Source: a virus
DNA: 32,300 bases
IMG/VR virus record: IMGVR_UViG_3300030389_004514
Coordinates: 1 to 32,300 of that record
Reading direction: 5' to 3' (one strand)
Shown piece by piece: positions 7,295 through 30,091 of this stretch. Numbering within the stretch: the first letter of the stretch is position 1; each line of letters starts with the position of its first letter. The notes beneath the pieces were generated by a model. The model saw only the letters and a list, made by a program, of their open reading frames with translations. It had not been told where the DNA came from and did not search any database. The position numbers were made by a program, and so were the translations under genes.

Positions 7295-8445
7295 TAGATT
7301 TCTTCTTCTGGTTGTAGTTCTTCGGTGGTTATTTCTTCTTCTCTCTTGTCGGGGTCTTGTTCAATTACAAGAGACTTTTTCACAAGAGCCTTACAATAAG
7401 TATGGGCTTCACTACTTTCTGGTTTACGAATCCACTCTACAAACTTACGATTTTGGAACTCGTATACTTCACCCGTATCCTTATTGGTAATAGATGACTT
7501 CTGAGCACTAATCTTTTCAGCGTGGCCAGCCTTCAGAAGTATGTCTAACCAACTTTCTTCATCTATCAAACCTTTTGTGAAATACATCTTCAATTCTGCT
7601 TCACGGTGAGGCGGCCCCATTCTGTTCTTGATGAGTTTTGGTTTGATACCGACACCAATAACATCTTTACCAGCTTTGACCTTACCACCACTATACAACT
7701 TCATACGAACTGAAGAAAAGAACGGAATAGCCTTACCGCCTGGCGTTGTTGTATCGTCACCAAAGAATACACCAATCTTTTGTCTCACTTGATTTAGAAA
7801 CACAAGAGCAACTCTTTGTTGACCGATAAAACGAATAGACTTTCTAAGACCTTGACCGATCATACGAGCGTGCATTCCAATCGTAGATTCGCCATATTCG
7901 TTTTGTAATTCAACATCAGTAGATGTGCCGGCTACACTATCCCACACTATACAACATAGTTTATCGGGTTCGTTTTCTCTAATCTTACGAATGATGTCTT
8001 CAATGGCTTGGAATACCTTTTCTACCGACTCTACTTGAATGTAAACAAGTGAACCTTCTGGGTAAGGCTTTAAACCAAGTAAGTTTAGGAAATCTTCATT
8101 ACAAGCATTCTCTGTATCAATCAATACAGGAACACCACCTTTGTCTTGACAATCTTTAAGAATCAAATACGACAACAAGGATTTACCTGTGGCCGCCTCA
8201 CCAGATATTTCGGTGAGGCGACCAACTGGTATGCCCCCATCGGCATTTTCATCATTAGAGATGATTGTGTCTAAAACTGTAGAGCCAGTAGATAACCACT
8301 CTTTTACTTCGGGTGGACTATCGCCCTTACCAAGAATGTAGGCTACATCACCAAGTTTCTTGTTAAGACTTTCTACAAGTATTTCATTTAGAACCGAATC
8401 CTTCTGTATAGAGGACTCAGCTGCTTTTATTTTCTTTCTGGCCAT
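7294..8445 (-). CDS. uvsX: UvsX/RecA-like recombinase
   Basis: 383 aa strand-exchange ATPase of the phage UvsX branch. Walker A is GEAATGKS (82-89), Walker B is CCIVWDSV around residues 164-171 with D169, and FLNQVRQKIGVFFGDDTTTP carries the loop that in RecA/UvsX contacts DNA, followed by GGKAIPFFSSVRM. The C-terminus is acidic (EEEITTEELQPEEEI), as in RecA family proteins where it tempers filament activity. It follows the SSB gene with a one-base stop/start overlap, as expected for a recombination-dependent replication operon. No UvsY-like mediator was recognised in the window. Confidence 0.93.
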   Translation of the reverse strand: MARKKIKAAESSIQKDSVLNEILVESLNKKLGDVAYILGKGDSPPEVKEWLSTGSTVLDTIISNDENADGGIPVGRLTEISGEAATGKSLLSYLILKDCQDKGGVPVLIDTENACNEDFLNLLGLKPYPEGSLVYIQVESVEKVFQAIEDIIRKIRENEPDKLCCIVWDSVAGTSTDVELQNEYGESTIGMHARMIGQGLRKSIRFIGQQRVALVFLNQVRQKIGVFFGDDTTTPGGKAIPFFSSVRMKLYSGGKVKAGKDVIGVGIKPKLIKNRMGPPHREAELKMYFTKGLIDEESWLDILLKAGHAEKISAQKSSITNKDTGEVYEFQNRKFVEWIRKPESSEAHTYCKALVKKSLVIEQDPDKREEEITTEELQPEEEI

Positions 8446-9284
8446 TACTTAAAGTCAATGTCCTTGTCTTTACCACCAAGCAAACCATCAAAAGCAGCGT
8501 CAATCTTTTTACTGGTCTTATCTTCTTCAGCGGCAACGGTAGTGGTAGAACCATTACCAAAGTCGCGGGTAGAACCAGCAGATGAATCAGAATCATCAGC
8601 GTTAGGATTGATGTGCTTATCAAGAGCAATCTTCATCTCTTCAGCAGGGCTGTAGTCAAAGAGAGTGTCAACATTTGTAACACTATCAATGATAGTTTCA
8701 ATGTCACTCTTTGAACCAGCCAAAGGCGTTGGCTTAAGAGCAGTAGTAATGGTAGTAGGCATCAACCAACCATTAAAGCCTGGCTCAACTGTAACCATCA
8801 AATCTAAACCTTCAGACGGGTCAGTGATATCAACATTTTGTCGAAGACCACTACGAACGTGATTTAGAACTTCTTTATAAGTAGTACGAGGCGAAATGCT
8901 CCACCAACGAATACCCTTATCTTCTTGACCACGAACCACGATAGGAACGTAAACACGAAGTGTAGGAGCCATTGTCTTAAACATCTCTTTGAATGACTCA
9001 TCACCAGTTTTGGTGAACTCATTCCAACAAGTAGTAGCGAAATCACAAATAGGGTCGGGTTCACCCTTCATTTTATTGGGACATAAAAAAGTACGTCCAC
9101 CAATACGAAAATGAAACCACAACTCTCTGAACGGCATCTCCATATCTTCCTTGTAGGGAGCGATACGAATCTGATGTTCGCCCTCTTCAAGTTTAACCAA
9201 AGCATCTTGGTTTTGATTAGAGCCGCCACCTTTGTTATCAAGGCGATCCAAAGCATTGTTTATCTTGTCCAAACTAATAGGCAT
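8445..9284 (-). CDS. gp32: Single-stranded DNA-binding protein, T4 gp32-like
   Basis: 279 aa. A short basic N-terminal region (SLDKINNALDRLDNKGGG) is followed by an OB-fold core with FRELWFHFRIGGRTFLCPNK and DPICDFATTCW. H58, C68, C80 and C86 could form the zinc site that in T4 gp32 uses one His and three Cys. The C-terminal third is low-complexity and acidic, ending FDGLLGGKDKDIDFK, like the gp32 acidic tail that recruits replication partners. The start at 9284 has AAAGGAG upstream. It is first in the replication operon behind tandem promoters P3 and P4, which suits a protein needed in large amounts. Confidence 0.85.
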   Translation of the reverse strand: MPISLDKINNALDRLDNKGGGSNQNQDALVKLEEGEHQIRIAPYKEDMEMPFRELWFHFRIGGRTFLCPNKMKGEPDPICDFATTCWNEFTKTGDESFKEMFKTMAPTLRVYVPIVVRGQEDKGIRWWSISPRTTYKEVLNHVRSGLRQNVDITDPSEGLDLMVTVEPGFNGWLMPTTITTALKPTPLAGSKSDIETIIDSVTNVDTLFDYSPAEEMKIALDKHINPNADDSDSSAGSTRDFGNGSTTTVAAEEDKTSKKIDAAFDGLLGGKDKDIDFK

Positions 9285-11967: not shown

Positions 11968-11968
11968 C

Positions 11969-14830: not shown

Positions 14831-14993
14831 TCTTGGTCACCTTTGGTGTAATCTCTTTTGCTGACCTTATCTCTTCATCAAGTATGAGATTATAAATCTT
14901 CTTTAGTGTGTCAGAAGAAACTTGATCAGAAACTGTTATCAAGATTACTCCCGACTCTTCGTTGTGTAAAACTTGCTCCAATAACCTTTTCAT
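14823..14993 (-). CDS. Small hypothetical protein, 56 aa
   Basis: ORF filling the gap between the SIS-domain gene and the 83-aa zinc ribbon. It starts at ATG 14993 with a strong AGGAG 6 bases upstream and ends 8 bases inside the next gene. The protein (MKRLLEQVLHNEESGVILIT and on) looks like a small alpha/beta domain with charged helices; no family recognised. The good ribosome site and exact fit argue that it is real. Confidence 0.66.
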   Translation of the reverse strand: MKRLLEQVLHNEESGVILITVSDQVSSDTLKKIYNLILDEEIRSAKEITPKVTKNG

Positions 14994-15002
14994 CTTATTC
15001 TC

Positions 15003-15587
15003 CTATTCTACAACTAGTTCTTCTACAATAGCGTGAAGAGCAATCTCTGATGTCAATTCAACTACACCGTAATTATAACTATCTATCTTAACAAAATGAT
15101 CTCTATCGCCATTCAATACAGGCTCTCCATCCATACCAAAAATTGATAAGGTATGTGAGCCAACTTCACCTGCATATTGTAAAGCTCTCATAATATTAGG
15201 GGATTTGCCAGATGAGGATACAGCAATTACATAATCTCTTTTCTTAAGTTCATTTATCTTTAACCATTGTGTCAAGGCATCTTCTTGACTATAGTCGTTG
15301 GTAAGGGCGGTTTGCAGACTATTGTTACTTAGCGTATGTGCCTTCACCTTACATCTCTTATTAAGATCAGTTGAGATATGCTCTGCAATAGCATGACTTC
15401 CGCCGTTACCTATGATAAATACTCTATCAATAGATGTTACTAACATATCGTCACCCTTCTTATAGGCATAAGTGCCTTCTAGCTTTTCTTTTACAACACT
15501 TAATACATCATTATCAAGCTCAGATACACATCTAATGATATCTCTTTTATACTCGCTAATTGTTATAACTCCATTATCATCTGGCAT
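15003..15587 (-). CDS. gmhA: Phosphoheptose isomerase-like SIS-domain protein
   Basis: 194 aa. SIS-domain sugar isomerase: FIIGNGGSHAIAEHISTDL (57-75) is the phosphosugar-binding loop and AVSSSGKSPNIMRAL (122-136) the second SIS motif, both as in GmhA, which converts sedoheptulose 7-phosphate to D-glycero-D-manno-heptose 7-phosphate. The family length (about 190 aa) matches. The adjacent GHMP kinase, whose stop lies one base before this ATG, is the next enzyme of the GDP-heptose route, which strongly supports the assignment. A general phosphosugar isomerase of other specificity remains possible. Confidence 0.82.
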   Translation of the reverse strand: MPDDNGVITISEYKRDIIRCVSELDNDVLSVVKEKLEGTYAYKKGDDMLVTSIDRVFIIGNGGSHAIAEHISTDLNKRCKVKAHTLSNNSLQTALTNDYSQEDALTQWLKINELKKRDYVIAVSSSGKSPNIMRALQYAGEVGSHTLSIFGMDGEPVLNGDRDHFVKIDSYNYGVVELTSEIALHAIVEELVVE

Positions 15588-15588
15588 T

Positions 15589-16623
15589 CTATGACTCCAC
15601 GTTTAACAACACTCTACTACCATAGTGATCAATGTTAAAATTCATTATTTTATAATTACCCAATTTTTTTATCATACCTTCTGTTACTTGTTGTCTCACA
15701 CGTTCCACATAAAACATCATAAAGCCACCACCCCCCGCACCAATTATTTTACCACCTGTAGAACCACCTTCTCTTGCTGTATTATACATTTTCATTATAT
15801 CTTCATTTACAATCTTATCACTAAATTTCAACTTCAAATCCCAATTCATTCTCAAGCTATGACCTATGTTTTGGTATTCGTTGTTTTTTAAGTGTTCAGC
15901 TAACCATTTAGATAATTCTACATTCTCCTTCATGGCGTTTATAGTATCTTCTTTATCCATCAAGTTTTTATTTTGGTCATCTAAAACTGACGAACTTTCT
16001 CTTGTAATACCAGTATAGAACAGAAGTAAATTCTGAGATATTGAATTTAAATCATCTTGTTTCTTTACTAGTGGTGTAACCTTTATTTCATGTCTTTCAT
16101 TAGCTGTATAATCATTTATATATTCATTAGCAGTAAATGTCATTTCATTTAGACCGCCATAAGCAGCCGCATACTGATCTTGATAACCAATAGGTTTACC
16201 ACACAAAACCATCTCTATGTGTGATGCTTGTTGTGCTAACTTTTGTTTACTAACATAATTGCCCTCTAATGTATGAATAGCATTTAGCAACCCAACAAGA
16301 AAACTTCCACTACTACCAAGACCACTACCTTTTGTTGGTATGTCTGCCCAGTTGATAATCTCTAAACCATAATTAACACCCAAATATATAAGTGTCTCTC
16401 TAATGAAGTCATGCTGTATTTTAAATATTGTATTTGTATCTACGACTTCGTTTTCAGAATACTTTAGATAAATTTTATTATCGTGTCTCTTCTTTACCAA
16501 AACATAAACGTATTTGTCTATGGTGGCGTTGATACAGTGTCCGTCATGTTTCTCAAAGAAAGACGGCATATCTGAACCACCACCAGTAAATGTTATTCTT
16601 AGTGGTGTCTTTGTTATAATCAT
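15589..16623 (-). CDS. hddA: D-glycero-D-manno-heptose 7-phosphate kinase-like GHMP kinase
   Basis: 344 aa. All three GHMP kinase motifs are present: N-terminal TPLRITFTGGGSDMPSFF (6-23), ATP loop PTKGSGLGSSGSF (96-108), and C-terminal GGSTGGKIIGAGGGGF (286-301). GKPIGYQDQYAAAYGG (142-157) holds the likely catalytic aspartate D149. This arrangement is that of HddA, which phosphorylates heptose 7-phosphate at C1 on the route to GDP-D-glycero-D-manno-heptose, and of related fucose/galactose-type kinases. The neighbouring GmhA-like gene favours heptose. It overlaps the end of the 97-aa gene by 4 bases. Confidence 0.86.
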   Translation of the reverse strand: MIITKTPLRITFTGGGSDMPSFFEKHDGHCINATIDKYVYVLVKKRHDNKIYLKYSENEVVDTNTIFKIQHDFIRETLIYLGVNYGLEIINWADIPTKGSGLGSSGSFLVGLLNAIHTLEGNYVSKQKLAQQASHIEMVLCGKPIGYQDQYAAAYGGLNEMTFTANEYINDYTANERHEIKVTPLVKKQDDLNSISQNLLLFYTGITRESSSVLDDQNKNLMDKEDTINAMKENVELSKWLAEHLKNNEYQNIGHSLRMNWDLKLKFSDKIVNEDIMKMYNTAREGGSTGGKIIGAGGGGFMMFYVERVRQQVTEGMIKKLGNYKIMNFNIDHYGSRVLLNVES

Positions 16624-16913
16624 ATTCTGCCAGTAATCTCTTTTATTCTGTTTATTGCAACTGTTAGTTCGACAACCTTAGCTTCTAATGAGCTTACCTT
16701 ATCTTTGGCGTCACGGTATTCTCCCCAAGCCTTTGTGGCTTCTTCTTGCCAATCAATCTCTACACCAGATACATCGTCAAAGTTTTGTAGTCTCCTTCTA
16801 TAAATGGTTTTACCATTATCGGGACTTTCATAAATGTATTTATTACCATCATCTTTTTGATTCTTTAGGTTGTCTATTCTTTCTCTGCCTTGTCTGTCAA
16901 CACTAACCGTCAT
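16620..16913 (-). CDS. Hypothetical coiled-coil protein, 97 aa
   Basis: Unrecognised. The middle is polar with several beta-like stretches (KYIYESPDNGKTIYRRRL) and the C-terminal 35 residues form a probable coiled coil (AWGEYRDAKDKVSSLEAKVV and on). It overlaps the epimerase gene before it by 11 bases and the kinase gene after it by 4, so it is part of the same transcript. The CDS looks more like a small phage structural or accessory protein than a sugar enzyme. Confidence 0.65.
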   Translation of the reverse strand: MTVSVDRQGRERIDNLKNQKDDGNKYIYESPDNGKTIYRRRLQNFDDVSGVEIDWQEEATKAWGEYRDAKDKVSSLEAKVVELTVAINRIKEITGRI

Positions 16914-17898: not shown

Positions 17899-17951
17899 TA
17901 TTTTATTCTCCTATTGTTTATTGACATATAGTATAATAAAATAAACGACCT
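17899..17951 (-). promoter_or_regulatory. Weak possible promoter before the epimerase gene
   Basis: The 53-base gap is AT-rich. On the minus strand TTTATA, 17 bases, TATACT can be read as a poor sigma70 promoter; it does not match the TTGACA/TATATT type used elsewhere. This gap is one of the few spaces within the glycan island where a promoter could sit. Confidence 0.25.
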
Positions 17952-19046
17952 TTATAAACTATTGAGTATATCTAAATATTTTTTCCCTATTATCTCTGGC
18001 CTACACACATCATGCCAGTTTTGTTTGGCTCTATCGCTGTAGTATTTATAATCAATACTGCCATCAATAAAGCCTTTCATAATACGAGTATACTCACTAG
18101 TATCATTTGGTAAGACAACAAAACCAGTATCGGCTATTGTCTCTATGTGACCATTGAATGTTTGTCCATAATGTGAGATAACAGGCTTACCGTGGGCTGC
18201 AGCCTCCCAAACATTTGCTGGGTTACACTCTCCATCTTTTCTGGCGTGAGCTAAAACATCAATGGTGTTATAAAATTTACTAAGTCGTTCTTTAGATGTT
18301 GTCTTGTCTATAAACTTAGCATTAGAAATACGAAACCTGCTAATATCATTCCTGCATAAATCGGATGGATTAACAATAACAAAAAAAGTTCTGGAAGTTT
18401 CAACTTGTCCATAAGCCTCCAGATTAATCGGGTCATAAATACTTTCATCGTCTCTTCCTATTCTACCAAAAACAAAAGCGTCATTGGGTATACCAAGTTC
18501 TTCTTTTAGGTTTTCATTTGAGTAAGGGTCTTCTATAGAGTTTCTTAATACAACATGTTTAGGATTATCTCCAAAACCCGCGGCCATCTTAAGTTGTTGA
18601 GATACGTAGATGACTCTTGAAATTTCTATACTGTCATCTTGGTTAGCAAATACTGCTGTACTCAGAAAGTGATTGCTATGTTCTTTTATTTGTGGTACTA
18701 ACGGCCACTCTGGTATACCAGCACTATATCTATGAACAACAAAAGGTTTTAGTTCTTTTATCTTCTCTATCAACTGGTGTTGACTAGTATAACAAAACAT
18801 TCTACTTTGACCAATGGCATCTCTAAAATAAGGTTCTCTTGTTTTATCTCCATCTGACTTGTATGCCAACCAGTGGTCATAGTTCTTATCATACTTTGAT
18901 AACCAACCCAAAAGTATTTGAACCATACCCTCTGTTCCACCAAGACCTAATCCGTTGAGGTGATGAACAACAACCTTCTTAGTTGAACCTGTTTGCCAAT
19001 CAATAGACAAGTTGGCGGTGTTTAGTGTTAATCTTTGATAAGGCAT
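17952..19046 (-). CDS. Glycosyltransferase family 4-like protein (GT-B)
   Basis: 364 aa. GT-B glycosyltransferase: glycine-rich N-terminal loop HHLNGLGLGGTEGMVQ (28-43), nucleotide-binding domain with VFGRIGRDD (192-200), and the donor-binding region DVLAHARKDGECNPANVWEA (263-282) followed by AHGKPVISH (284-292), where E282 fills the place of the conserved EX7E region. It is clearly a paralogue of the C-terminal half of the 603-aa protein at 20442-22253, aligned nearly end to end. Donor and acceptor are unknown; by context a deoxysugar or heptose. ATG 19046, directly after the GT-A-like gene. Confidence 0.84.
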   Translation of the reverse strand: MPYQRLTLNTANLSIDWQTGSTKKVVVHHLNGLGLGGTEGMVQILLGWLSKYDKNYDHWLAYKSDGDKTREPYFRDAIGQSRMFCYTSQHQLIEKIKELKPFVVHRYSAGIPEWPLVPQIKEHSNHFLSTAVFANQDDSIEISRVIYVSQQLKMAAGFGDNPKHVVLRNSIEDPYSNENLKEELGIPNDAFVFGRIGRDDESIYDPINLEAYGQVETSRTFFVIVNPSDLCRNDISRFRISNAKFIDKTTSKERLSKFYNTIDVLAHARKDGECNPANVWEAAAHGKPVISHYGQTFNGHIETIADTGFVVLPNDTSEYTRIMKGFIDGSIDYKYYSDRAKQNWHDVCRPEIIGKKYLDILNSL

Positions 19047-19048
19047 AA

Positions 19049-19843
19049 TTAGGCTGAGAAGTTTGTCCCGTCTGGTCTTCTAATTTCATCTAAGGGGATG
19101 TGTTTGATTTCCTTACCGATAAATCTTGTTATGTTATGTCCTCTTACAATATTATACTCATTCAACTTATTTATGACATCACTAGCTTCATGTAAATGAC
19201 CAAAGGCATACTTTTCTGTAAAACGATATCGTGGGTGACCATCTCTTTGAAACTGCCACCATAAATCATTAGGATCACCGATTGAGTGTAATCCATTTAA
19301 CACCCATTCTTCTACGTTATCAAAACCAAGTTGTGTGCCTTCATATTCATTTTGTAAGAAGTCTATTTCTTTTCTTGGTGGGTATACCTCTGCCTTCAAG
19401 GGTAAAAACTCTTTTAAGAAGTCTCTCTTAAACAACATTAAGTCTGACATTGGAAAGTGATGTGACTTATGTTCACCAGCACCAAATGGTTTTCCACTAG
19501 CAATAAAATCATCAATAAGATTTTCATATCTCTCTTGATTGAAAAAGAATCCATCAAAGTTTGTCAATACAACGATATCTCTATAACCTGCTAATGCAAA
19601 TCTTAAGCCAGCGTTGATAGCATCTAATGCACCATAAGCATAACCTGTGTTTTCTGGAATGGTAATAAAAGTATTCTCACCACAACCACTAGCTATTTTA
19701 TCTAAATCTCCATTGAATACAGCAGTCAACCATAAATCTAATCCATTTGGAAAATTATATCTAATTATTTCTCTATTGATAACATATTCTTTTGTTCTAT
19801 CATAACCAATCAAGATATGATTTATGTTCTTAAAATCAGCCAT
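19049..19843 (-). CDS. Possible GT-A type glycosyltransferase, 264 aa
   Basis: The sequence has a GT-A-like plan: an N-terminal strand and helix (HILIGYDRTKEY), then PENTGYAYGALDAINAGLRF followed by YRDIVVLTNFDGFFF, which resembles the NxGxxxAxNxG...xxxLNxD pattern of GT2-type transferases with the DxD position reduced to FDG. The rest (KSHHFPMSDLMLFKRDFL, NDLWWQFQRDGHPRYRF) is not assigned. It lies between a methyltransferase and a GT4 gene, with 2-5 base spacings, so a role in glycan assembly is likely. ATG 19843 is preferred to TTG 19846; AGAGAGGA lies upstream. Confidence 0.6.
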   Translation of the reverse strand: MADFKNINHILIGYDRTKEYVINREIIRYNFPNGLDLWLTAVFNGDLDKIASGCGENTFITIPENTGYAYGALDAINAGLRFALAGYRDIVVLTNFDGFFFNQERYENLIDDFIASGKPFGAGEHKSHHFPMSDLMLFKRDFLKEFLPLKAEVYPPRKEIDFLQNEYEGTQLGFDNVEEWVLNGLHSIGDPNDLWWQFQRDGHPRYRFTEKYAFGHLHEASDVINKLNEYNIVRGHNITRFIGKEIKHIPLDEIRRPDGTNFSA

Positions 19844-19848
19844 CAAAA

Positions 19849-20445
19849 CTATCCTCTCTTATATACCATTAGGTTAGGTAAGAACCAACCAGCACAATCG
19901 GGTGGATTACCCCACGATTTTATTTCATCTTCAATTTCATTGTCTATATTATAATGATGTTTACCAAATTTTTCAATCCAAGATTCTTTAGGGGCACAAT
20001 TAACATGAAAATCGCCGGCCTGACCAATGGGTGCTGCGGTCATTACAATATGCTTCGGGTAGTGCATTACTATATTCTCTACAAAAATTTCAGAGTATTC
20101 TTTTTCTATGTGTTCGGCCACTTCATAACTTTGCAGTAAATCAACGGGACAGATAACTGGTTGTTCTAATTTATCTCTAAGGTCATGTTTAACAATAAAA
20201 CTATCAGCTGTTTTTGATATTATTTCATCTATATTAGGTGAACCTTCTATACCCCACGCATTTTTTTCCAAGTTTTTCCATAACTCTATTTGTCCACCAC
20301 CCGCACAACCAACATCTAAAACACTTTTTGGTTTCAACAATTCGTTTAATCTTGGTATAACCCATCCACCAAACCTAAACTGCTCTTCTTGGTTATCACG
20401 AAAAAATTGATGACTATATTCACGTAAATCATATCTATCGGTCAT
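19849..20445 (-). CDS. Class I SAM-dependent methyltransferase
   Basis: 198 aa. Motif I SVLDVGCAGGGQIELW (41-56) binds SAM; AWGIEGSP is motif II-like and DLLQSYEVAEHIEKEYSEIF fits the post-motif region of small-molecule methyltransferases (Methyltransf_11/23 type), followed by HIVMTAAPIGQAGDFHVN. Probably O-methylates a sugar residue of the glycan made by the neighbouring enzymes. It overlaps the start of the gene coding the GT2-GT4 fusion's stop by 4 bases and is followed after 5 bases by the GT-A-like gene. Confidence 0.78.
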   Translation of the reverse strand: MTDRYDLREYSHQFFRDNQEEQFRFGGWVIPRLNELLKPKSVLDVGCAGGGQIELWKNLEKNAWGIEGSPNIDEIISKTADSFIVKHDLRDKLEQPVICPVDLLQSYEVAEHIEKEYSEIFVENIVMHYPKHIVMTAAPIGQAGDFHVNCAPKESWIEKFGKHHYNIDNEIEDEIKSWGNPPDCAGWFLPNLMVYKRG

Positions 20446-22253
20446 TGAAGCTCTCTATACATTTTAAGATGTTGTTCAACAATAACTTCTGGTCTTGCTC
20501 TTTCATACCATCTTTGTTTTGCTCTACTACTAAGATAATCATAGTCTATCTGTTTGTCAATGAATCCCTTCATAATACGAGCATACTCTTCGGTATCATT
20601 CTTTATCTGTCCCTTACTATCTTCACAAGTAAAGTTAGGTAGATTGATACTTCTTGCATAATCAAGCACATCGGGTATAGATGATGGATTACCGTCTTGC
20701 CACACGTTATGAAAATTACTTTTTCTCATAACAACAAAACCAGCATCACCAATCTCTTCTATGTGTCCATTGTAAGGAATACCCAAGTGACTAATAACAG
20801 GCTTACCGTGAGCCATCGCTTCCCAGCAATTGCCGGGATTACACTCACCATCCTTACGAGCATGAGCAAGAACATCCATAGTATTATAAAACCTACTTAA
20901 CCTTACGTCATCTAATGTTGGGTCTACCCAACGAACATTCTTTAAACCTAACTCAACAGCCTTTTCTTTTAGACTAGTTGATGGATTCAATGCTATGAAG
21001 TAAGTGTTCTCTTTTTCTACCATAGAGTAAGCATCAAGATTGACAGGATCATATATATCACCGTCATCTCTACCGACTCTACCAAAGACGAAGGCATCAT
21101 TTGGTATATCTAATTCAGCTCTAAGGTCTTGATCAGTTCTTGGTGATTCTACAGGAATACGGATTAGTTCTGCATCGTCACCTGTGTGTCCAGCACATTG
21201 TTGTAAGTTGTTGCTAATATACACACACTTATCAATATCAATAGTTCCATCTCTACTACCAAAGATTGCAGTGGAAACTAAATATTTAGCAAAATCATCT
21301 AGTGGTTTGACAAAAGGAAATTCTGGTCCACCCGCTGTTTGTCTGTGAACTATGTGTGGCTTCAACTCTCTCATAATATATAAGAACTCTGGTGCTGAAG
21401 CAAAACAAATTAAGTTATCTTTACCCAAGTATTCTTCAAAGTATGGTTCTCTTTCTCTTTCACCGTGAGCCTTGAAAGCTAGTGTATGGTGAAACTCATC
21501 GTCTTTGGGAAAGTATTTCGCCAATAACTGTACAACCTTAGCGGTTCCACCCAGACCAAGATGGTGTAGATAGTGAACAATCAACTTTTTATTACTTGAT
21601 ACGTTTATTCTCTTGGCTGTAAGTTTAGCTTCTAACTGATACTGATCATGTTCTCTATCAATACCCCTCTGCTGACGAGCAGCACTCTTACGATGAACAA
21701 TGTGTTGACCAACTAAGGCAGCGTCTTTTGTTGCACCGATTATTCGTTCATGTGTTCTGCCAGAATAACGACAATTTCTTTTGTATATCCTCTGTTGATA
21801 GTCGGGATAGTTTACCCACTGAAAGTATGAAAGTTGCCATCCCTGTCTTTCGACCATTTCTTGGTCTAATCCATCTACAATATTTATTCGGGGTAAACTA
21901 ATACAATCAACACCATTTTTATCAGCCTCCCATATATGCCAAGGCAACTGATTCCAAAGTAGATGTTCTAACTTTTCATCAGCATCTATTAGAACTCTCC
22001 ACTCTTCTTTTGTATTATCAAGGGCAAAGTTCTTCTGAATCTCAAAATCGTGTTGCCACGGTTTCTCTAATACAGTAACCTTATCTTCACCGACATTATC
22101 TCTAAATTCTTTTAGTGTCTCTAAAGTTCCATCTGTAGAGCCACCATCAACAATAACAAAATCGGATACTATGTATGGTCTTACATTATCAAGAGTGTCT
22201 TTGATAGTATCCATATCGTCATATGTGATCATTGCAATTGAATACTTTACCAT
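20442..22253 (-). CDS. Two-domain glycosyltransferase: GT2 (N) fused to GT4-like (C)
   Basis: 603 aa. Residues 1-200 are a family 2 transferase: SIAMITYDDMDTIKDTL, VIVDGGSTDGTLE (33-45), and the metal-binding LIDADEKL with DAD at 90-92. Residues about 222-603 are a GT-B domain: HYLHHLGLGGTAKVVQ, VFGRVGRDD (388-396), DVLAHARKDGECNPGNCWEA (460-479), AHGKPVISH. The C-terminal domain is homologous to the separate 364-aa protein and carries an extra segment of roughly 40 residues (about 511-552) absent there. Fusion suggests two consecutive sugar additions by one protein. ATG 22253 overlaps the GT9-like gene's stop by one base. Confidence 0.88.
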   Translation of the reverse strand: MVKYSIAMITYDDMDTIKDTLDNVRPYIVSDFVIVDGGSTDGTLETLKEFRDNVGEDKVTVLEKPWQHDFEIQKNFALDNTKEEWRVLIDADEKLEHLLWNQLPWHIWEADKNGVDCISLPRINIVDGLDQEMVERQGWQLSYFQWVNYPDYQQRIYKRNCRYSGRTHERIIGATKDAALVGQHIVHRKSAARQQRGIDREHDQYQLEAKLTAKRINVSSNKKLIVHYLHHLGLGGTAKVVQLLAKYFPKDDEFHHTLAFKAHGEREREPYFEEYLGKDNLICFASAPEFLYIMRELKPHIVHRQTAGGPEFPFVKPLDDFAKYLVSTAIFGSRDGTIDIDKCVYISNNLQQCAGHTGDDAELIRIPVESPRTDQDLRAELDIPNDAFVFGRVGRDDGDIYDPVNLDAYSMVEKENTYFIALNPSTSLKEKAVELGLKNVRWVDPTLDDVRLSRFYNTMDVLAHARKDGECNPGNCWEAMAHGKPVISHLGIPYNGHIEEIGDAGFVVMRKSNFHNVWQDGNPSSIPDVLDYARSINLPNFTCEDSKGQIKNDTEEYARIMKGFIDKQIDYDYLSSRAKQRWYERARPEVIVEQHLKMYRELQ

Positions 22254-23251
22254 TATGGACGCTCCTTATTATTAACCATATAATCAAAAATATCAAATAA
22301 ATTTTGTGGTGTTGTTTCTCCATCCATCATTCTGTTAGGTGCAGATTGATATTGTCTATCGGGAACAAATGCTTTTGCTGTAGATACGGGGTTTGTTTCC
22401 AAATATAGATTACCCCATATGTCAGATGGTTCTTGTGGTGTATGTATTGGTATAAAGAATTGGTTTTTCAAAAACATACAAACAGTAGGGACACTCATAC
22501 GTGAAGCGATACCCCATTCCCAACTATTTGTTGTAATACATCCTATAGCATTTTTTAGCAGCGCTGTTGTTTCTTCAATACCCAAACCCATAAAATTCAT
22601 AAATGGTATGGTTTTGGCATAAAGCAAATGAGGAACATTCTGTAAGTCTTTTTCTAAACCCATGAAAACAGGAAGATACCTGTTATCAACTAATATCTTA
22701 CATAACTCTGCCCACTTCTCAGCAGACCAAAATCTCTTCTGTTCTAAGTCGTGATCAAAACCTTCAGCGTTTCCATCTGTTGTAAATGGTTTTATCAAAA
22801 CCGATCTTGACTTTACATAGGTGTCCCAATTTTCTATATTACTAGTATCAACATCAAACTTATAATCATAAGGGAATGCCAACGGATACTTATAAAAGGG
22901 TGGATCTTCATTTTGAAATATCTCTTTACAGAAAGACCAATCTTCGTATATGTCACCTCTTGGTGTTTTTACGTAGTTCTTATTAATAAATTCTTCCATC
23001 TTCTGATGTTGGTTATGATAGATGTAATTTTTTATAGTAGTTGCAGCATAACCTTGACGCTCTATCATTTCTTTTGACAACTTAGGTGACTTACCATACC
23101 CACCAAGCAAGAAAACAATTTTGTGGTTTGGGTATACTCTCTCAACACTTGGCAATCTTGCTAAGTGACTAGTAATATCTCCTATACCACAAAGCGCATG
23201 AATGAAAAATACTGGATCATTGCCTTTGATGGTTTCCAAGAAACTAATCAT
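22253..23251 (-). CDS. GT9/heptosyltransferase-like glycosyltransferase, 332 aa
   Basis: GT-B fold protein with FFIHALCGIGDITSHLARLP near the N-terminus, corresponding to the GxGDxxxxxP loop of ADP-heptose:LPS heptosyltransferases, and NAIGCITTNSWEWGIASRMS in the C-terminal part, corresponding to the donor-binding NDTGxxHxAxAxxxP region, but with the usual D and H replaced (TNSWEWGIA). Sugar transfer from a nucleotide-heptose is plausible, but the divergent donor site makes the substrate uncertain. Start ATG 23251 (MISFLETIKG), overlapping the stop of the epimerase gene by 8 bases with GAGG upstream; the longer frame reaching 23305 is unlikely. Confidence 0.68.
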   Translation of the reverse strand: MISFLETIKGNDPVFFIHALCGIGDITSHLARLPSVERVYPNHKIVFLLGGYGKSPKLSKEMIERQGYAATTIKNYIYHNQHQKMEEFINKNYVKTPRGDIYEDWSFCKEIFQNEDPPFYKYPLAFPYDYKFDVDTSNIENWDTYVKSRSVLIKPFTTDGNAEGFDHDLEQKRFWSAEKWAELCKILVDNRYLPVFMGLEKDLQNVPHLLYAKTIPFMNFMGLGIEETTALLKNAIGCITTNSWEWGIASRMSVPTVCMFLKNQFFIPIHTPQEPSDIWGNLYLETNPVSTAKAFVPDRQYQSAPNRMMDGETTPQNLFDIFDYMVNNKERP

Positions 23252-24290
23252 TATGAACCTCATTCCTATGCATTCTGTCGTATATTGCTGCACAAGTTTC
23301 AGCAATACCTTCTTCTATATTCGTCTGTGGCTTTCCTAAATACTTAATCATCAATCTATTATTACAACACCTCTTTTTCACCAAGTTGGGGTCATGTGAT
23401 TCGTAAGTTATTTCTGACTTTATGTTTGGAACTAACTTACCCATCTCAGCTAACATAACATCTAATAATTCCTTCACAGATGTCTCTACACCTGTGCCAA
23501 TGTTGATAAAGATGTTTCTACACTCGTCATTCTCACAGGCCGCCAGATTTGATCTGGCAACGTCTGTAGAGAAAATCATATCCATAGTTTGTGAACCATC
23601 ACCATAGATTGTAATGTCCTCACCCTTAGCAATAGAACGAATCCACTTTGGAACTATTTGTGTGTATACATTAGCAAGAGATTGTCGTGGACCATAGACA
23701 TTAAAATATCTAAGACCGACAATATTCAAACCCTCTTCCATAAAAGTGCGAGCAATAAACTCTGTAGCAATCTTAGTTGAGCCATACAGAAGTTTATCAC
23801 CATTCAATGGACAATCCTCATCTGTTGGTGTATATGCTGGTTGTCCAAAAACAGAAGCAGAAGATGAATAGATTACCTTCTTTACGTTATAGTCAACACA
23901 AAGTTGAAAAACAATACCAGCACCTAAAGTATTTGTTTTGATTGCCTTTATCGGGGCTTCTTTACTATCTAAGGTCAACATACTAGCACAATGAAAAACA
24001 TAATCTGGTCTATAGTCAGCAAAGGCGTTTCTCATCATCAGTTCATTATCAATACTGACTAGTATCTCTTTTATAAAAATGTCCTTTTCTTTTGCTAAAC
24101 CAAAAGATGTCCGAAGATTTTCAGTATTACCGTTATACATACTATCAACACAAACAATGTTGATATTATCTTTTTGTTTGCATAACTCTTCCACTATGTA
24201 ACTACCTATGTTACCATGTGAGCCAGTAACTAAATAGGTCAATCTATCTTTGGAGTATTTAACAGATGGATTAAGTGTATAGTCTACCAT
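23244..24290 (-). CDS. NAD-dependent nucleotide-sugar epimerase/dehydratase
   Basis: 348 aa extended SDR: GSHGNIG (23-29), VFHCASMLTLD, YSSSASVFGQP (140-151) with catalytic serine, and Y169/K173 (LLYGSTK). C-terminal IYGDGSQTMDMIFSTDVA and INIGTGVETSVKELL are those of UDP-glucose 4-epimerase-like enzymes. Within the family it resembles WbpP/GalE/TDP-sugar types, but substrate is not decidable. The sequence of the start site, ATG directly after the RmlC-like stop codon (TAA ATG on opposite ends of 24290/24291), shows an operon. Two SDR epimerases of different sequence in one cluster imply at least two modified sugars or two steps. Confidence 0.84.
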   Translation of the reverse strand: MVDYTLNPSVKYSKDRLTYLVTGSHGNIGSYIVEELCKQKDNINIVCVDSMYNGNTENLRTSFGLAKEKDIFIKEILVSIDNELMMRNAFADYRPDYVFHCASMLTLDSKEAPIKAIKTNTLGAGIVFQLCVDYNVKKVIYSSSASVFGQPAYTPTDEDCPLNGDKLLYGSTKIATEFIARTFMEEGLNIVGLRYFNVYGPRQSLANVYTQIVPKWIRSIAKGEDITIYGDGSQTMDMIFSTDVARSNLAACENDECRNIFINIGTGVETSVKELLDVMLAEMGKLVPNIKSEITYESHDPNLVKKRCCNNRLMIKYLGKPQTNIEEGIAETCAAIYDRMHRNEVHND

Positions 24291-24857
24291 TTACTTATCC
24301 ACTCTTTCCCACGGCCATAGAGCCATGTGTGGATCAAGTCTTTCTTCATCTGTCCCATCATACTTACTAGTGATGTGGTAAATCAAAATAGCTGGCTCAT
24401 TAGTATAGTTATGACAACCATGCCATAAACCAGTTGGAACAAACAACGGACCTTGACAAGCGTTTCTTTCAGTAAGATAGTGCCATTGTATTTGTGGGTC
24501 TTCTAAACTCCACTGACGGCGTAAAGCTGGTTTACTTTCCCAAATCTCACGCCAACTATCTACAGCCTCTTTTTGTACCTTATCTATATTAACAATCTCT
24601 TTATCAGAAAACTTAGATGCATCATAAGCTAAATTAGGTAGATTACACATACCAACCTTTAGACTTCCCTTGACTACTAGTTGATAATCAGCTTGTCTTC
24701 TATGTCTATGCCAAAGAGCAGTAGCGCCTGGCTCTATAACAGAAACATTAATATCTCCGCCGTTTTCTATCTCTGGAAAAATATCACAATACCTTTGACC
24801 TCTGTCATCTAAGTGATACCTACCACCATATCTCATTTCATCTGCTGGCTGACTCAT
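24291..24857 (-). CDS. RmlC-like cupin (sugar 3,5-epimerase-like)
   Basis: 188 aa beta-barrel protein. SVIEPGATALWHRHRRQADY (39-58) and QLVVKGSLKVGM resemble the RmlC/cupin core with histidines 50 and 52, and LFVPTGLWHGCHN (138-150) corresponds to the IPxGFAHGF motif of dTDP-4-dehydrorhamnose 3,5-epimerases; the ending YHITSKYDGTDEERLDP also matches RmlC. It should act on a keto-sugar nucleotide made by one of the SDR dehydratases. An isomerase of a related sugar (for example C3 epimerase of a GDP-heptose) is equally possible. It lies 3 bases after the methyltransferase gene and directly before the SDR gene. Confidence 0.74.
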   Translation of the reverse strand: MSQPADEMRYGGRYHLDDRGQRYCDIFPEIENGGDINVSVIEPGATALWHRHRRQADYQLVVKGSLKVGMCNLPNLAYDASKFSDKEIVNIDKVQKEAVDSWREIWESKPALRRQWSLEDPQIQWHYLTERNACQGPLFVPTGLWHGCHNYTNEPAILIYHITSKYDGTDEERLDPHMALWPWERVDK

Positions 24858-24860
24858 TAT

Positions 24861-25427
24861 TTACCCCTTATTAAAAAACCATTTTGTTGTCCAATAGCTA
24901 AACTCACCTTCACTATTGTTTGCCAATAAATTTTCACAAGCTGCTTTCACACCCGCATCACGATAGTCATCACCTGCAAGCAACCCACCACTTTTTATTT
25001 TTGGTAACCAACTTATTATATCATTTTCTACTGCTGATTGTGAATGGTCACCGTCAATCATAACAAACTCTAAACTTTCATCTTCATACAAAGTAGCACC
25101 ATCTATAGATGATGCCTTAATAGCCTTATAGTATTTTTCTACTGGCTTCATGTTTTTGGTAAAAGTATCAAACATATCAATGTCTTGAAGTTGTTTTACA
25201 TTTATGTGTTCTGAACTACCAAGCCAATGATCAATAATATCATAATGAATATTCTTTCCAGAATTAGCGATCTCTACCGCCATGTAGGAACTACTTTTAC
25301 CAAGTAAAGCTCCCACCTCTACAAAGTGGGAACCACTTGGAAACCGTTTGACAGCATCTCTCATAATACTAAAGTAGGTGTCATCACTATAGCCAAAAAT
25401 ATTATCGTGGAAGTGTTGTATACCCAT
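24861..25427 (-). CDS. Class I methyltransferase (Methyltransf_24-like)
   Basis: 188 aa. Motif I is FVEVGALLGKSSSYMAVEIA (35-54), and MIDGDHSQSAVENDIISWLP (123-142), with GGLLAGDDYRD after it, is the metal-binding and catalytic region seen in Methyltransf_24 O-methyltransferases. Likely target is a sugar of the glycan, given flanking HAD and RmlC-like genes. The ATG overlaps the HAD stop by one base (25427). A second, unrelated methyltransferase lies at 19849 and a third domain in the 807-aa protein, so the glycan is probably methylated more than once. Confidence 0.76.
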   Translation of the reverse strand: MGIQHFHDNIFGYSDDTYFSIMRDAVKRFPSGSHFVEVGALLGKSSSYMAVEIANSGKNIHYDIIDHWLGSSEHINVKQLQDIDMFDTFTKNMKPVEKYYKAIKASSIDGATLYEDESLEFVMIDGDHSQSAVENDIISWLPKIKSGGLLAGDDYRDAGVKAACENLLANNSEGEFSYWTTKWFFNKG

Positions 25428-25870
25428 TATTCTTCTCTGGGCGTGTAATCTTTTGGATTTATGTTCAACTGATCTAAAATTTCTCTAGCATATGGAAAGA
25501 GTGGATCAAATACTTGAACACCATCAGTATGTTCTTTTGTCTTTACCTTCTCAAGTGCCTTCTCTTCATTTTCCAACCATTCATTTGCATTGATAGCTTT
25601 ATCATCAACAAAGTAATCAACACCGCCGGGCTTTAGGCCAACAATCAACTGATCATAAGGAATACCAAAGTAGTCTAACTGTTTTGCAGTAAAATCTCTC
25701 CAATCAGTTTTTGAAGAAGCACCACGAGCAGTCATTATAATAATGTGGTCACCTCTCTCTTTGTATGCTCTAACCTTAGCAATCGCTTTTGGAATAGGTG
25801 TAGAATTTTTATAATTACTACCACTAGTTTTTACCAGAGTGTTATCTAAGTCAAACAGCCATCTTATCAT
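25427..25870 (-). CDS. HAD-superfamily phosphatase, 147 aa
   Basis: Small HAD hydrolase: motif I FDLDNTLV with D7 and D9, motif II IIMTARGASS with T47, lysine K80 (GLKPGGVDYFV) and motif IV DD at 89-90 followed by KAINANEW. No large cap domain, as in capsular-polysaccharide phosphatases and GmhB-like enzymes. In a heptose pathway the missing step after HddA is removal of the C7 phosphate by GmhB; this protein could supply it, but true GmhB is about 180-190 aa and has CxHxC zinc residues that are not seen here. It overlaps the RmlD-like gene by 4 bases. Confidence 0.78.
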   Translation of the reverse strand: MIRWLFDLDNTLVKTSGSNYKNSTPIPKAIAKVRAYKERGDHIIIMTARGASSKTDWRDFTAKQLDYFGIPYDQLIVGLKPGGVDYFVDDKAINANEWLENEEKALEKVKTKEHTDGVQVFDPLFPYAREILDQLNINPKDYTPREE

Positions 25871-26787
25871 TCTATTCTTCCCATCTCTCTTAGGTATTTT
25901 TGTATGTCTTCTTCGTAAGTAGGTATTTTTTCATTTCTCTCACCAAACGCTCTTTCAAACTTAGTTGGATTTAGTGGTGTCCACTTTGGTCTTGCAAGGT
26001 TGGTGTAAAAATCATCTGTTTTAATCTTTTTTATAGCATCTTCTTGACCAATGTATTTAGCCATTATTCTGGCAGCGTCATACCAAGTATGATTACCCTT
26101 GTTTACAAAGTGATAGTTACCATAGGCATTTTCGCCTTCTTTTCTTATCATCATTTCTAACCATCGTGCAGCAGTTGGTGTATAGGTAAGGTTTATTACT
26201 TGATCTGCTACAACTTCAACATAACCATTCTTTTCTAAGGCAGTTAAAATAATACTTGGAAAACACCTACCGTTTTTTGCTCTGCTACCTTGTTTAGAAA
26301 ACAAACCCGATACTCTAACATTGAAATACTTCTTAGCTGTTGTTGATACTACCTTTTCACCAGCATACTTCAGAATACCGTATAGATTGACGGGATCGGG
26401 TGAATCCATTTCATTATAGTGTTCCAAACCATCAAAACCTGCTCTTGGCATTTGTTTTCCACTAAACACGTAGTTGGTTGAGAAATTTATCAATGTTGTA
26501 TCATATTCATTACAAAGATTTGAAATGTAGTGTAACGAAGTAATGTTGACATCAGCAGCAAGACTTGGGTTAGAGTTTATTTCTTCAACAACATGATAAC
26601 TTGCACCTTGTATCCAAACATCTGGCTTAACATCTTTAAAAACTTTTTCCAAAGCGTCCTTATCTGTAACATCTAAGGACTCTCTATCAAAATCAAACAC
26701 ACGATAACTGAGTGAAAACTCTCTTAGTCTTTCTATTATGTCTGTTGCCAGTTGACCCTTAGAGCCTGTTACAACAATTTTTTTCAT
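25867..26787 (-). CDS. RmlD-like NAD(P)-dependent deoxysugar reductase
   Basis: 306 aa extended SDR of the dTDP-4-dehydrorhamnose reductase type: GSKGQLATD (8-16), the VTDKDALEKVFKDVKPDVWI stretch, INFSTNYVFSGKQ (101-113) and Y136/K140 (LYGILKYAGEK). RmlD-type enzymes reduce the 4-keto group of a deoxysugar nucleotide. With the RmlC-like cupin and the SDR genes it forms a set able to convert a 4,6-dehydratase product to a 6-deoxy sugar. The C-terminal part (RPKWTPLNPTKFERAFGER) is also RmlD-like. It overlaps the DUF4254-like gene by 4 bases at its start. Confidence 0.85.
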   Translation of the reverse strand: MKKIVVTGSKGQLATDIIERLREFSLSYRVFDFDRESLDVTDKDALEKVFKDVKPDVWIQGASYHVVEEINSNPSLAADVNITSLHYISNLCNEYDTTLINFSTNYVFSGKQMPRAGFDGLEHYNEMDSPDPVNLYGILKYAGEKVVSTTAKKYFNVRVSGLFSKQGSRAKNGRCFPSIILTALEKNGYVEVVADQVINLTYTPTAARWLEMMIRKEGENAYGNYHFVNKGNHTWYDAARIMAKYIGQEDAIKKIKTDDFYTNLARPKWTPLNPTKFERAFGERNEKIPTYEEDIQKYLREMGRIE

Positions 26788-27218
26788 AGAGAACCGTCTG
26801 CCATCTTCAAAGAGTGATTAATTACCTCGTCTATTCTCTCAACTAAATCATTTCGTTGTTTATTGGTCACACTTACCTTATCTGCCGCCTGAAGTCTACT
26901 TTTATCAGTGTTTCTTTTATCTCTACGAATATCTTCTAAATCCCATAATTCACAATGTCTAAGATATAAAGAATAAATTAACTCTATCAAATTATCAGAA
27001 TTGGGTTTATCAACATTCTTATCATATTGCTTATGTTTGGCAAAAATGCCTGGCTTCTTACCAGCCTTAGTGTCAATTATAGATTCAGCAATAGAGTTTA
27101 ACAACCACCCATTCTGTTGTTTTAAGTTTGTCTCAACAGCAGTAGATAGGTTGTGTATTAGTTTGTGTCTTCTTACTTCATTGATAATAAGAGTGTCTAA
27201 GTAATATCCAAAGGTCAT
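26784..27218 (-). CDS. DUF4254-like protein, 144 aa
   Basis: The C-terminal half shows the DUF4254 pattern: LRHCELWDLEDIRRDKR (86-102 region), then KVSVTNKQRNDLVERIDEV, which corresponds to the family core HxxNxxLWxxED...RxxVxxxxIDxxNQxRND. DUF4254 proteins occur in bacterial surface-sugar gene clusters near GT9 heptosyltransferases; their activity is not known to me. The N-terminal half (YYLDTLIINEVRRHKL) is helical. It lies directly after the GT2-like/GT9/methyltransferase gene (4-base overlap), which repeats the typical bacterial neighbourhood. Confidence 0.72.
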   Translation of the reverse strand: MTFGYYLDTLIINEVRRHKLIHNLSTAVETNLKQQNGWLLNSIAESIIDTKAGKKPGIFAKHKQYDKNVDKPNSDNLIELIYSLYLRHCELWDLEDIRRDKRNTDKSRLQAADKVSVTNKQRNDLVERIDEVINHSLKMADGSL

Positions 27219-29638
27219 GCTGTTTTCCTCAGTTTTAGAAAGTCCATTTCGGTTCTTTGTTCATCAACCCACATTCCATAATCTTCAAATGTGAAACCGA
27301 CTTTTGTTAGCGTATTAGTCAAACCTTGTCTACTGTATAGTGTAATTATTTCACCGTTACCAATCGCTGGCCATCCTCTTGGATCATACTTGAAACTATC
27401 GTTTTCAATACTGATGTTGTTGAGATATGCAACTCCATCATTTTTGAGAGCTTTATATACATTTTCCAAAAGTTTTTCTGGTCTGCTAACGTATGGTAAA
27501 ATATCACTGAGCAAAATTACATCATATTCGTTTTCGCCAAGGTCTTTAGTGACATCTCTTATTATAATATTATCAGCAATGTTTTTATACTTATCTTTCC
27601 CGTTTTCAACAGAAAATCTATTTATGTCGTAACCCTTGACATTTTTGTATCCGTTACTATCCAAACCGTTAATAAAGATACCCATATTACAACCAACATC
27701 AAGTATACTAGCATCTTTATCAAAACCATCTTCTTTTATCTGCTTGAATACAGGTTCAAAATTATTCTTCCATAGATTAGATGCTTCTTCAGAATAGATT
27801 TGTGAAATATTCAATCTTTGATCGGGGTGATAAAAAGGTCTTTCTCTGTGATGTGAACCATTTTCATCCTTGTAATAAATAAAGCCTGGCGCTATGTCTC
27901 TTTTTACCAAAGTGCCACCAATATTCAATGCGTAACTACTACCATTGTAAGATGAAAACAATTTGTCTATCGCATTCTTTACATCAACAGCGTCAATAGA
28001 ACTTAGACCACTTGATGGGTCTTCTTCAAAAACGGGAACAAATGTAATACCCTGTTCTGCCATACTAAAAAATGTTCTATGTTTTACTCCGTAACCACCG
28101 TTTGTCTTGTTCTCTACGTATATAATCTTATCACGGTTGGGATTACTTAGATATGTAAGAGCAGCCCCATTAATAGAAACACAAGGTTTATTCAAACCAC
28201 GGGCAATGTGCATCGGGCCGTTGTCAGCACCAATATAAAACTCACAATGTGTAAGTAAGTTGACCAACTCACCGAGTGAACAACCACGATACTTAGTTTC
28301 ACTTTCTTCTGTGTACTGAAAGCCTGGCTCAAACACTTTATAACCCATAGACTTTACATACCTAACTACTTCAGCATACTTATCCATATCCCAAGACTTG
28401 CCAGGCCAACCACTACCATCAGCGACAACAACAACATACTTATCATCTACAAGTCTTTCACTTTCACTTACTAGTTCAACGTGTTTATCTTCTTGACTAT
28501 CAAACTCTACACCAGCAACTTTAGCATAGGCATCAATAAACTGACAGTTGTTTCTACTCTCGTATGATAGGTCTAAATCTATCTTTACTTGTTCGGATGC
28601 ATTTTCGCCCAAGTAATCTTTTACTAGTTCATTACCGTCTATCAGTTCTGTCTTATCTGGCTTGTTTTTGAAAAACTCAACTATCTCTGGTTTTGCTGTA
28701 TACAGAGTTATTGGGACATTGGGATATTTTTCTTTTAGTTTTCTAATAATAGGTTCTACCAAGACAACATCACCCATACCCATAGTTCTCTTGATGGCAA
28801 TACTACTTATATCTTCTGTATCTTGAACGACCTTGAGAATATTTTCTGAGAACTCTCTCAAATAAAAGTTGCCAACAATAGTGGGAAAAGACCTAATAAC
28901 CTCAAGGCCCTCTTCTGTTTCAACAACGTCTTCTTCAATCTCTGTTTTAACGGGTGTGCCTACCTGTTGATATAGTTCTTCAAGGTTTCCTTGTGGTGCT
29001 TGATTTCCACCAGCGTTGAGCCATTGAATAACTGTTATTTCTGGAGGTATAGTTCCACGATGTTTTGCTTGAATCCACTGCTTGACAGAATACCCAGCAT
29101 AAAACAAAGGCACACCATCTTTTTCAGTGATACATTGTGACCAATCGGTTTCAACTTCTTTGGCATGACATACTTCATCCAAAACAATCTGATCTGGTTT
29201 TGGTGGATTGTCAATACGAAAACTTAAAGTATTGAAAGGTGAATCAGGCTGTTCTACATTTCTATTTTCTGTATGAGATAAAGCCCACTTAGTACCCTTG
29301 TCTGAATTGAATCCATCAAGGTGAACAGTAATGTGGCGAGGATACCACAAAACATTGTTACAACTTTTATAGAAGATTACTTCACCTTCTGCTAAATCGG
29401 TAAGTTCCTTAAGAAAGTTAGATGATGGTTCGTGGAAAACCCAGCGTGTATCTAACTTAAGTTCAGCAAACTTTGCTTGAATATCTTTTGTTTCATCGGC
29501 ATTTCTAAATGTAGAAACTATAACATCTAAATTCTTATGTGTTCCCTCTAATACATTCTTGTATACATTTAGAAGTTCATCATCACCGTTGTTCTCTCCA
29601 ACGATAATAACAGAGACAAGCGTGTCCTTAGTGTACAT
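27215..29638 (-). CDS. Three-domain protein: GT-A-like, GT9 heptosyltransferase, SAM methyltransferase
   Basis: 807 aa. Residues 1-about 210 look like a family 2 transferase (DTLVSVIIVGENNGDDELLN, LDVIVSTFRN, GEVIFYKSCNNV where the DxD is missing, so it may be inactive). Residues 279-560 are a GT9 domain: AIKRTMGMGDVVLVEPI (281-297), ADGSGWPGKSWDMDKYAEVV (406-425) and IGADNGPMHIARGLNKP (469-485), the donor-binding motif with D472 and H477. Residues about 640-807 are a class I methyltransferase with SILDVGCNMG (644-653), YDVILLSDIL and a C-terminal strand. One chain could transfer a heptose and methylate it. The linker (230-275) is acidic. No signal peptide. ATG 29638. Confidence 0.86.
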   Translation of the reverse strand: MYTKDTLVSVIIVGENNGDDELLNVYKNVLEGTHKNLDVIVSTFRNADETKDIQAKFAELKLDTRWVFHEPSSNFLKELTDLAEGEVIFYKSCNNVLWYPRHITVHLDGFNSDKGTKWALSHTENRNVEQPDSPFNTLSFRIDNPPKPDQIVLDEVCHAKEVETDWSQCITEKDGVPLFYAGYSVKQWIQAKHRGTIPPEITVIQWLNAGGNQAPQGNLEELYQQVGTPVKTEIEEDVVETEEGLEVIRSFPTIVGNFYLREFSENILKVVQDTEDISSIAIKRTMGMGDVVLVEPIIRKLKEKYPNVPITLYTAKPEIVEFFKNKPDKTELIDGNELVKDYLGENASEQVKIDLDLSYESRNNCQFIDAYAKVAGVEFDSQEDKHVELVSESERLVDDKYVVVVADGSGWPGKSWDMDKYAEVVRYVKSMGYKVFEPGFQYTEESETKYRGCSLGELVNLLTHCEFYIGADNGPMHIARGLNKPCVSINGAALTYLSNPNRDKIIYVENKTNGGYGVKHRTFFSMAEQGITFVPVFEEDPSSGLSSIDAVDVKNAIDKLFSSYNGSSYALNIGGTLVKRDIAPGFIYYKDENGSHHRERPFYHPDQRLNISQIYSEEASNLWKNNFEPVFKQIKEDGFDKDASILDVGCNMGIFINGLDSNGYKNVKGYDINRFSVENGKDKYKNIADNIIIRDVTKDLGENEYDVILLSDILPYVSRPEKLLENVYKALKNDGVAYLNNISIENDSFKYDPRGWPAIGNGEIITLYSRQGLTNTLTKVGFTFEDYGMWVDEQRTEMDFLKLRKTA

Positions 29639-29665: not shown

Positions 29666-30091
29666 TTAGTCAACATTGACCACACTGATTAGCCTTGTGT
29701 TAATCTTTCTTAAAACATTTGTGCCATCATCTTCTTTATACGTAACCAAAACGGTGTTCTTATAGTCTTCCCAATCTACAGAAAACTTTTCATCTAATTC
29801 ACCGTTGTTCTGACTACGAATAACTTCGTTGAGAGCATTTAGTGTGTAAAGGGAGTTGATGTCTTTTTTGCGATGTAAAGAAATAGTGTTCTTTACGATA
29901 TTGCTAAAAAGTGTATCTCCCTTCACAATGTTGTAAGTAAGAATCTTTTTAAACTTATCAGATTCGTCTTGTAAAACAAAAATCTTATTTCCCACTAACT
30001 CAAAATTATCCATGATAAGGTCGATAGTGGTTCTAACATTTCTGGCCTTACAAAACGTAGCTAATAGCAATGTGTCTTTTATATAGTCCAT
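29666..30091 (-). CDS. Conserved phage protein of unknown function, 141 aa
   Basis: I do not assign a function. The sequence (MDYIKDTLLLATFCKARNVR and on) reads like a family I associate with marine phage genomes, with a middle part ISLHRKKDINSLYTLNALNEV and a C-terminal beta-rich part (WEDYKNTVLVTYKEDDGTNV). It looks cytoplasmic, with no membrane segment or cysteine motif. It stands between the large unknown protein (30134-32300) and the glycan island with gaps of 42 and 27 bases, so it could be the first or last gene of either unit. Confidence 0.72.
   Translation of the reverse strand: MDYIKDTLLLATFCKARNVRTTIDLIMDNFELVGNKIFVLQDESDKFKKILTYNIVKGDTLFSNIVKNTISLHRKKDINSLYTLNALNEVIRSQNNGELDEKFSVDWEDYKNTVLVTYKEDDGTNVLRKINTRLISVVNVD

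Follow-up and report, generated by a model that had tools for sequence, protein, structure and literature searches.

What does a phage gain from a single protein chain that joins a transferase-like region, a GT9 heptosyltransferase-like domain, and a methyltransferase? The question was raised by a 32.3-kb viral record (IMG/VR IMGVR_UViG_3300030389_004514, positions 1 to 32,300), which in its whole length is called the window here; the source of the 807-aa protein it encodes is an uncultured T4-like phage. A preliminary description of the locus, made from the sequence, had recognised three joined domains in an order with no known characterised precedent, and had suggested that the protein could add a heptose and methylate it in one step, which would leave a glycan end masked or closed to extension. 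We therefore examined the reading frame, its domains, its relatives, and its genomic neighbourhood; all window features given below lie on the minus strand.

Three domains in one reading frame

The open reading frame starts with ATG and has exact bounds of 27215..29638, an interval in which the plus strand carries many stops. Sequences simulated from the window with a first-order Markov model (n = 100) contained no stop-free run longer than 208 codons, and a frame of 807 codons is therefore not a product of chance. Pfam matched the middle and C-terminal parts directly (PF01075 and Methyltransf_23), and the N-terminal part was linked to GT2 enzymes through a profile of its relatives. The frame, profile, and fold matches, together with full-length relatives, thus bear out the three-domain composition. 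The structure model of the whole chain (mean pLDDT 70.8) found its best fold matches in TibC, 3tov, WaaF, and WaaC, followed by class I methyltransferases, and its pTM of only 0.56 makes the placement of the three domains relative to each other unreliable.

The middle domain (residues 272–567; 27938..28825) is a GT9 heptosyltransferase-like GT-B domain, identified by PF01075 (6.4e-13; 49 bits against a gathering cut-off of 22), by profile comparison with 3tov, WaaF, and TibC, and by fold search. Alignment with 3tov placed Asp-290 of the N-lobe segment GMGDV (residues 287–291; 28766..28780) with the LGDV of GT9 enzymes, in the catalytic-base region. Structure and family alignments identified Lys-414, within DGSGWPGKSW (residues 407–416; 28391..28420), as the conserved Lys of the GT9 donor site. 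The DxGxxH signature of GT9 corresponds to GADNGPMHIA (residues 470–479; 28202..28231), which the preliminary description had rightly read as intact. Asp-290, Lys-414, and DNGPMH are all kept and align with 3tov and partly with WaaF, so that the GT-B fold and its N-lobe GDxV, Lys, and DxGxxH elements are in agreement across alignments, fold search, and conservation. The nearest relative, L048, has DNGNIH at the same position; hence, the Pro-Met pair in the signature is not strictly required. The best sequence matches were heptosyltransferases of the lipopolysaccharide (LPS) core, namely RfaQ (1e-14) and heptosyltransferase III (7e-12). All scores were below the equivalog cut-offs, with 54.1 bits against 467 for RfaQ, 45 against 170 for heptosyltransferase III, 30.8 against 185 for I, 29 against 135 for II, and 24.8 against 200 for the TibC/Aah model TIGR04414.

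The C-terminal domain (residues 639–783; 27290..27724) is a class I SAM methyltransferase according to Pfam (Methyltransf_23, 9.5e-14), profile search, and fold search. Alignment and inspection of the sequence located methyltransferase motif I, LDVGCNMGIF, at residues 646–655 (27674..27703), intact as first described. Profile matches of this domain span N-, O-, and C-methyltransferases, and its substrate specificity cannot be read from them as a consequence. It is the least conserved of the three domains, and an LEH-type segment found in some relatives is LPY in the window protein. The methyl group could go to a sugar other than the added heptose or to another acceptor.

For the N-terminal 262 residues (28853..29638), Pfam gave no credible match. 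A profile built from this domain in ten relatives matched two GT2 enzymes, heparosan synthase B in its GT2 domain (3.2e-6) and SpsA (0.0064), and both were also the best matches of the predicted fold (3e-9 and 9e-9, respectively). The predicted structure of this part reached a pTM of 0.71, with 10-residue blocks of residues 1–120 at pLDDT 74–95. Profile and predicted fold agree on a GT-A nucleotide-binding fold of the GT2 type, in a degenerate form. At the DxD position of GT2 enzymes, profile and family alignments place KSCNN (residues 91–95; 29354..29368), which aligns with DSDD of heparosan synthase B and TDDN of SpsA. The preliminary description had noted no evident DxD; the motif is absent from the window protein and from every relative that has a GT-A domain, where the sequences fit [KR][ST]x[NT][NP] (KTxNN and similar). 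Invariant polar residues in the domain are E124, R141, N144, D154, E155, and H158. Structure prediction, on which the preliminary description had made its view of the two flanking regions depend, thus returned a GT-A fold on the N-terminal side and a class I methyltransferase fold on the C-terminal side.

A family of fused proteins in phages

Relatives were detected using the GT9 part as a sub-query on viral contigs, after a scan of viral contigs with the whole protein had given none. Full-length relatives of 797–835 aa with 37–56% identity occur at the same locus in eight viral lineages besides the window (L048, L014/L015, L016, L005, L003/L004, L010, L007, and L012), which brings the three-domain form to nine phage lineages. 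Recurrence of the identical domain order across many contigs rules out a fusion produced by chance or assembly. Two further phages encode a GT-A and GT9 protein without the methyltransferase, L063 (591 aa; 5191–6966) and L064 (575 aa; 5227–6954), in both cases at the same locus and directly behind the same upstream gene as the three-domain form. In L066, the GT9 domain follows a different N-terminal part. The L066 record also has an open reading frame at 3537–4988, before the GT9 frame at 4999–6894, that resembles the GT-A part by eye, and the two frames may together represent a relative of the fusion in split form.

In a tree of the GT9 domain, a supported branch (98/95) separates all three-domain proteins from the remaining members; the position of the root is not set by independent evidence. 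This topology is consistent with a single fusion, that is, one gain of the methyltransferase, and alternatively the methyltransferase may have been lost in the two-domain phages. For L014/L015, an unsaturated pair, the dN/dS ratio of each domain was 0.03–0.08; pairs with L016, where dS is high, gave 0.04–0.14. As judged from these coding-sequence comparisons, all three domains are under purifying selection among L014, L015, and L016.

Autotransporter heptosyltransferase TibC contains an iron finger formed by Cys-339, 342, 358, and 370 (PMC4358343). Four Cys residues are similarly placed in L007, L010, L012, L063, L064, and L066, with a spacing of C-x2-C-x18-C-x7-C in L007; in the clade that includes the window, some or all of them are absent. 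Since the window protein has none of the four Cys (0/4), an iron finger of the TibC type was rejected for it; these residues speak to ancestry and are not a feature of the protein studied here.

The order GT-A, GT9, methyltransferase was not found in any described enzyme among solved structures, a whole-protein tblastn search against phages and plasmids gave no match, and a literature search for a phage heptosyltransferase-methyltransferase fusion returned nothing on such a protein. A pattern scan of bacterial and archaeal genomes yielded distant GT9 matches only; its sensitivity is limited, and a bacterial counterpart is possible. All of these searches are in line with the claim that the order is without a known characterised precedent, and the search for the architecture itself, proposed for both bacteria and phages, was thus answered in viral contigs and only by distant GT9 matches on the cellular side. 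Fusions of glycosyltransferases with methyltransferases are, as a class, already annotated in viruses.

A glycan island with heptose-nucleotide genes

The gene for the 807-aa protein sits at one end of a glycan island. Comparison with phage genomes defined the borders as a conserved phage gene of 141 aa (29666..30091) on this side and the gene for the ssDNA-binding protein (8445..9284) on the opposite side, where a recombinase gene also lies outside the island. The distance between the two border genes, about 20 kb in the window, is below 2 kb in Microcystis phage Mel-JY01, Flavobacterium phage immuto, and the uncultured phage LR756508. Sugar genes and other accessory genes occupy the intervening segment of the window (9285–29665; about 20 kb).

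Directly downstream of the fusion gene is a DUF4254 protein of 144 aa (26784..27218; Pfam and neighbourhood comparison), whose start codon overlaps the stop of the 807-aa frame (ATGA). At each three-domain locus examined, DUF4254 comes next after the fusion gene, with a 230-aa methyltransferase-like frame between them in one lineage; the two-domain phages L063 and L064, whose records are few and fragmentary, showed no DUF4254 gene. Among 14 control genomes the family was detected only in a Bacteroides, and a literature search on DUF4254 gave a single mention, in a protein-family survey.

Profile matches assigned the next genes as an RmlD-like sugar-nucleotide reductase (25867..26787) and a HAD phosphatase of the capsule EcbF/BcbF subfamily (25427..25870), which may possibly fill the role of GmhB. 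The island also encodes a SIS-domain isomerase (15003..15587) with GmhA as its best match (56 bits against a cut-off of 209), a further gene identified by profile match (15589..16623), two epimerase/dehydratase-like proteins, a cupin, and further glycosyltransferases and methyltransferases. A weak match indicates a divergent second GT9-like protein (22253..23305), adjoining a GT2 and GT4 protein (20442–22253). In L014, L017, L018, and L022, by contrast, one protein holds both the GT9-like part and the GT2 part, and the island therefore reshuffles transferase domains. Elsewhere in the island, a gene at 13708–14574 has a weak, below-cut-off match to deoxyhypusine synthase (PF01916, 1.5e-4), and in L017 a TalC-type fructose-6-phosphate aldolase/transaldolase gene (13629–14294) adjoins a GmhA-like gene.

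The window island contains GmhA-like and HddA-like genes, and RfaE domain II was not found in the window record. Across 14 related records, GmhA-like genes occur in 6/14, HddA-like genes in 8/14, and RfaE domain II in 7/14. The sister phage L048 carries the SIS isomerase, the HddA-like kinase, and the ADP-heptose-forming RfaE domain II, the last of which is also present in four other lineages. At least one heptose-pathway gene accompanies the three-domain form in eight of its nine lineages, including the window, and the ninth, L016, ends inside the island. HddA-type kinases act in the synthesis of GDP-heptose, whereas RfaE domain II acts in that of ADP-heptose, so that the pathway would be a mosaic. 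The preliminary proposal of heptose addition thus gains from the GT9 signature residues and the linked heptose-nucleotide genes, as far as sequence can indicate it, and loses in certainty because the assignments of these genes are all below curated equivalog cut-offs. No GmhA-like, HddA-like, or RfaE domain II gene was seen in L063, L064, or L066 (few records, all fragments), and in view of the two two-domain phages the GT9 domain may not depend on the pathway. The association of heptose genes and DUF4254 with the three-domain form is a lead only.

Proposed function and comparison with known enzymes

On the observed architecture, motifs, conservation, and island context, we infer, with a probability of roughly 0.55, a multi-domain glycan-modifying enzyme in which GT9-catalysed heptosyl transfer is combined with methylation of a sugar and a non-catalytic GT-A module, on a target reached from the cytoplasm. 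The GT9 domain would probably move heptose from a nucleotide-heptose, likely ADP-heptose, which enzymes of the island would make, at least in part. Having lost its DxD, the GT-A domain most likely has a role in structure or acceptor binding and is not a second active transferase. The methyltransferase may act on a sugar of the same glycan, probably the newly added one or its neighbour, and the single chain would keep the transfer and methylation steps together, presumably in that order. The product is most likely located on a target such as a protein of the virion or the host's inner-core LPS. A simple hydropathy scan of the sugar-cassette genes (9628–27218) gave no transmembrane segments, which favours such cytoplasmic targets over an exported polysaccharide, and the window fragment showed no flippase, no polymerase, and no membrane-bound initiating transferase. 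A fuller version, in which a phage-made heptose is added and methyl-capped with the inactive GT-A domain recognising the acceptor, leaving a terminal methyl-heptose on the phage's own virion proteins or the host surface that masks against rival phages or host recognition, appears quite unlikely as a whole.

Narrowing the target to host LPS, so that a methyl-capped heptose on the inner core changes the receptor and excludes other phages, is a tentative alternative to the virion-protein version. It would be in line with the LPS-core enzymes among the best GT9 matches and with the cytoplasmic location of LPS-core heptosylation, for which a phage needs no flippase of its own; however, the island is far bigger than a single core modification requires, and the top fold match, which is not decisive, is the protein O-heptosyltransferase TibC. 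The linked RmlD-like, epimerase/dehydratase-like, and cupin genes, as well as the below-cut-off scores of every heptose assignment, would also accommodate a different GT9 donor such as a deoxysugar. We consider this unlikely, since characterised GT9 enzymes mostly use heptose donors and RfaE domain II, GmhA-like, and HddA-like genes recur alongside the three-domain form.

If the GT-A domain were a working, metal-independent glycosyltransferase, the protein would make two glycosidic bonds and a methyl ether. The invariant polar residues and the purifying selection on the domain fit this idea, but acceptor binding or a structural role would also yield conservation, and with the DxD missing in every relative that has the domain, a second active transferase seems improbable. 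Modification of phage DNA bases rather than of a protein or lipid glycan is highly improbable. T4-like phages do glucosylate DNA and the island adjoins replication genes; yet the window showed no recognisable gene for a hydroxymethylase or for any other base hypermodification, and no GT9 enzyme is known to act on DNA.

The family points to stepwise domain fusion in phages, with a DxD-less GT-A domain kept under selection before GT9 and a methyltransferase present behind it in one clade, in a gene near phage-borne heptose-nucleotide genes. If active, the protein would allow a single chain to produce methylated heptose, and the reason why marine T4-like phages carry heptose genes would become testable.

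The kinds of parts are known, namely GT9 heptosyltransferases, viral glycosyltransferase/methyltransferase fusions, and phage heptose genes, and the three-domain order is a variant on them. SpsA and heparosan synthase B share the GT-A fold with the N-terminal domain and differ in their DxD, which KSCNN replaces in the phage protein. WaaC, WaaF, and RfaQ (1psw, 2h1h, 3tov) share the GT-B fold, GDxV, conserved Lys, and DxGxxH; in contrast, they stand alone, without a GT-A domain in front or a methyltransferase behind, and the phage protein falls far short of their equivalog cut-offs. The TibC/Aah autotransporter O-heptosyltransferases (PMC4358343) supply the top fold match for the whole-chain model, although TibC carries a beta-barrel at its N-terminus and lacks the DxGxxH signature, whereas the window protein has a GT-A fold in front of GT9 instead. 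Catovirus A0A1V0S9B9 and the 'Aah/TibC' protein of an uncultured Caudovirales (A0A6J5SVC1; 924 aa) are also annotated as fused glycosyltransferases and methyltransferases, a likeness at the level of annotation; global TM-scores are low (0.18–0.27). Phage-borne heptose metabolism has been described with gmhA as an auxiliary metabolic gene in marine viruses (PMC9238414) and with waaC/F/Q in Lake Baikal viromes (PMC8066274); there, unlike here, the genes were reported as separate, with no fusion described in the literature searched.
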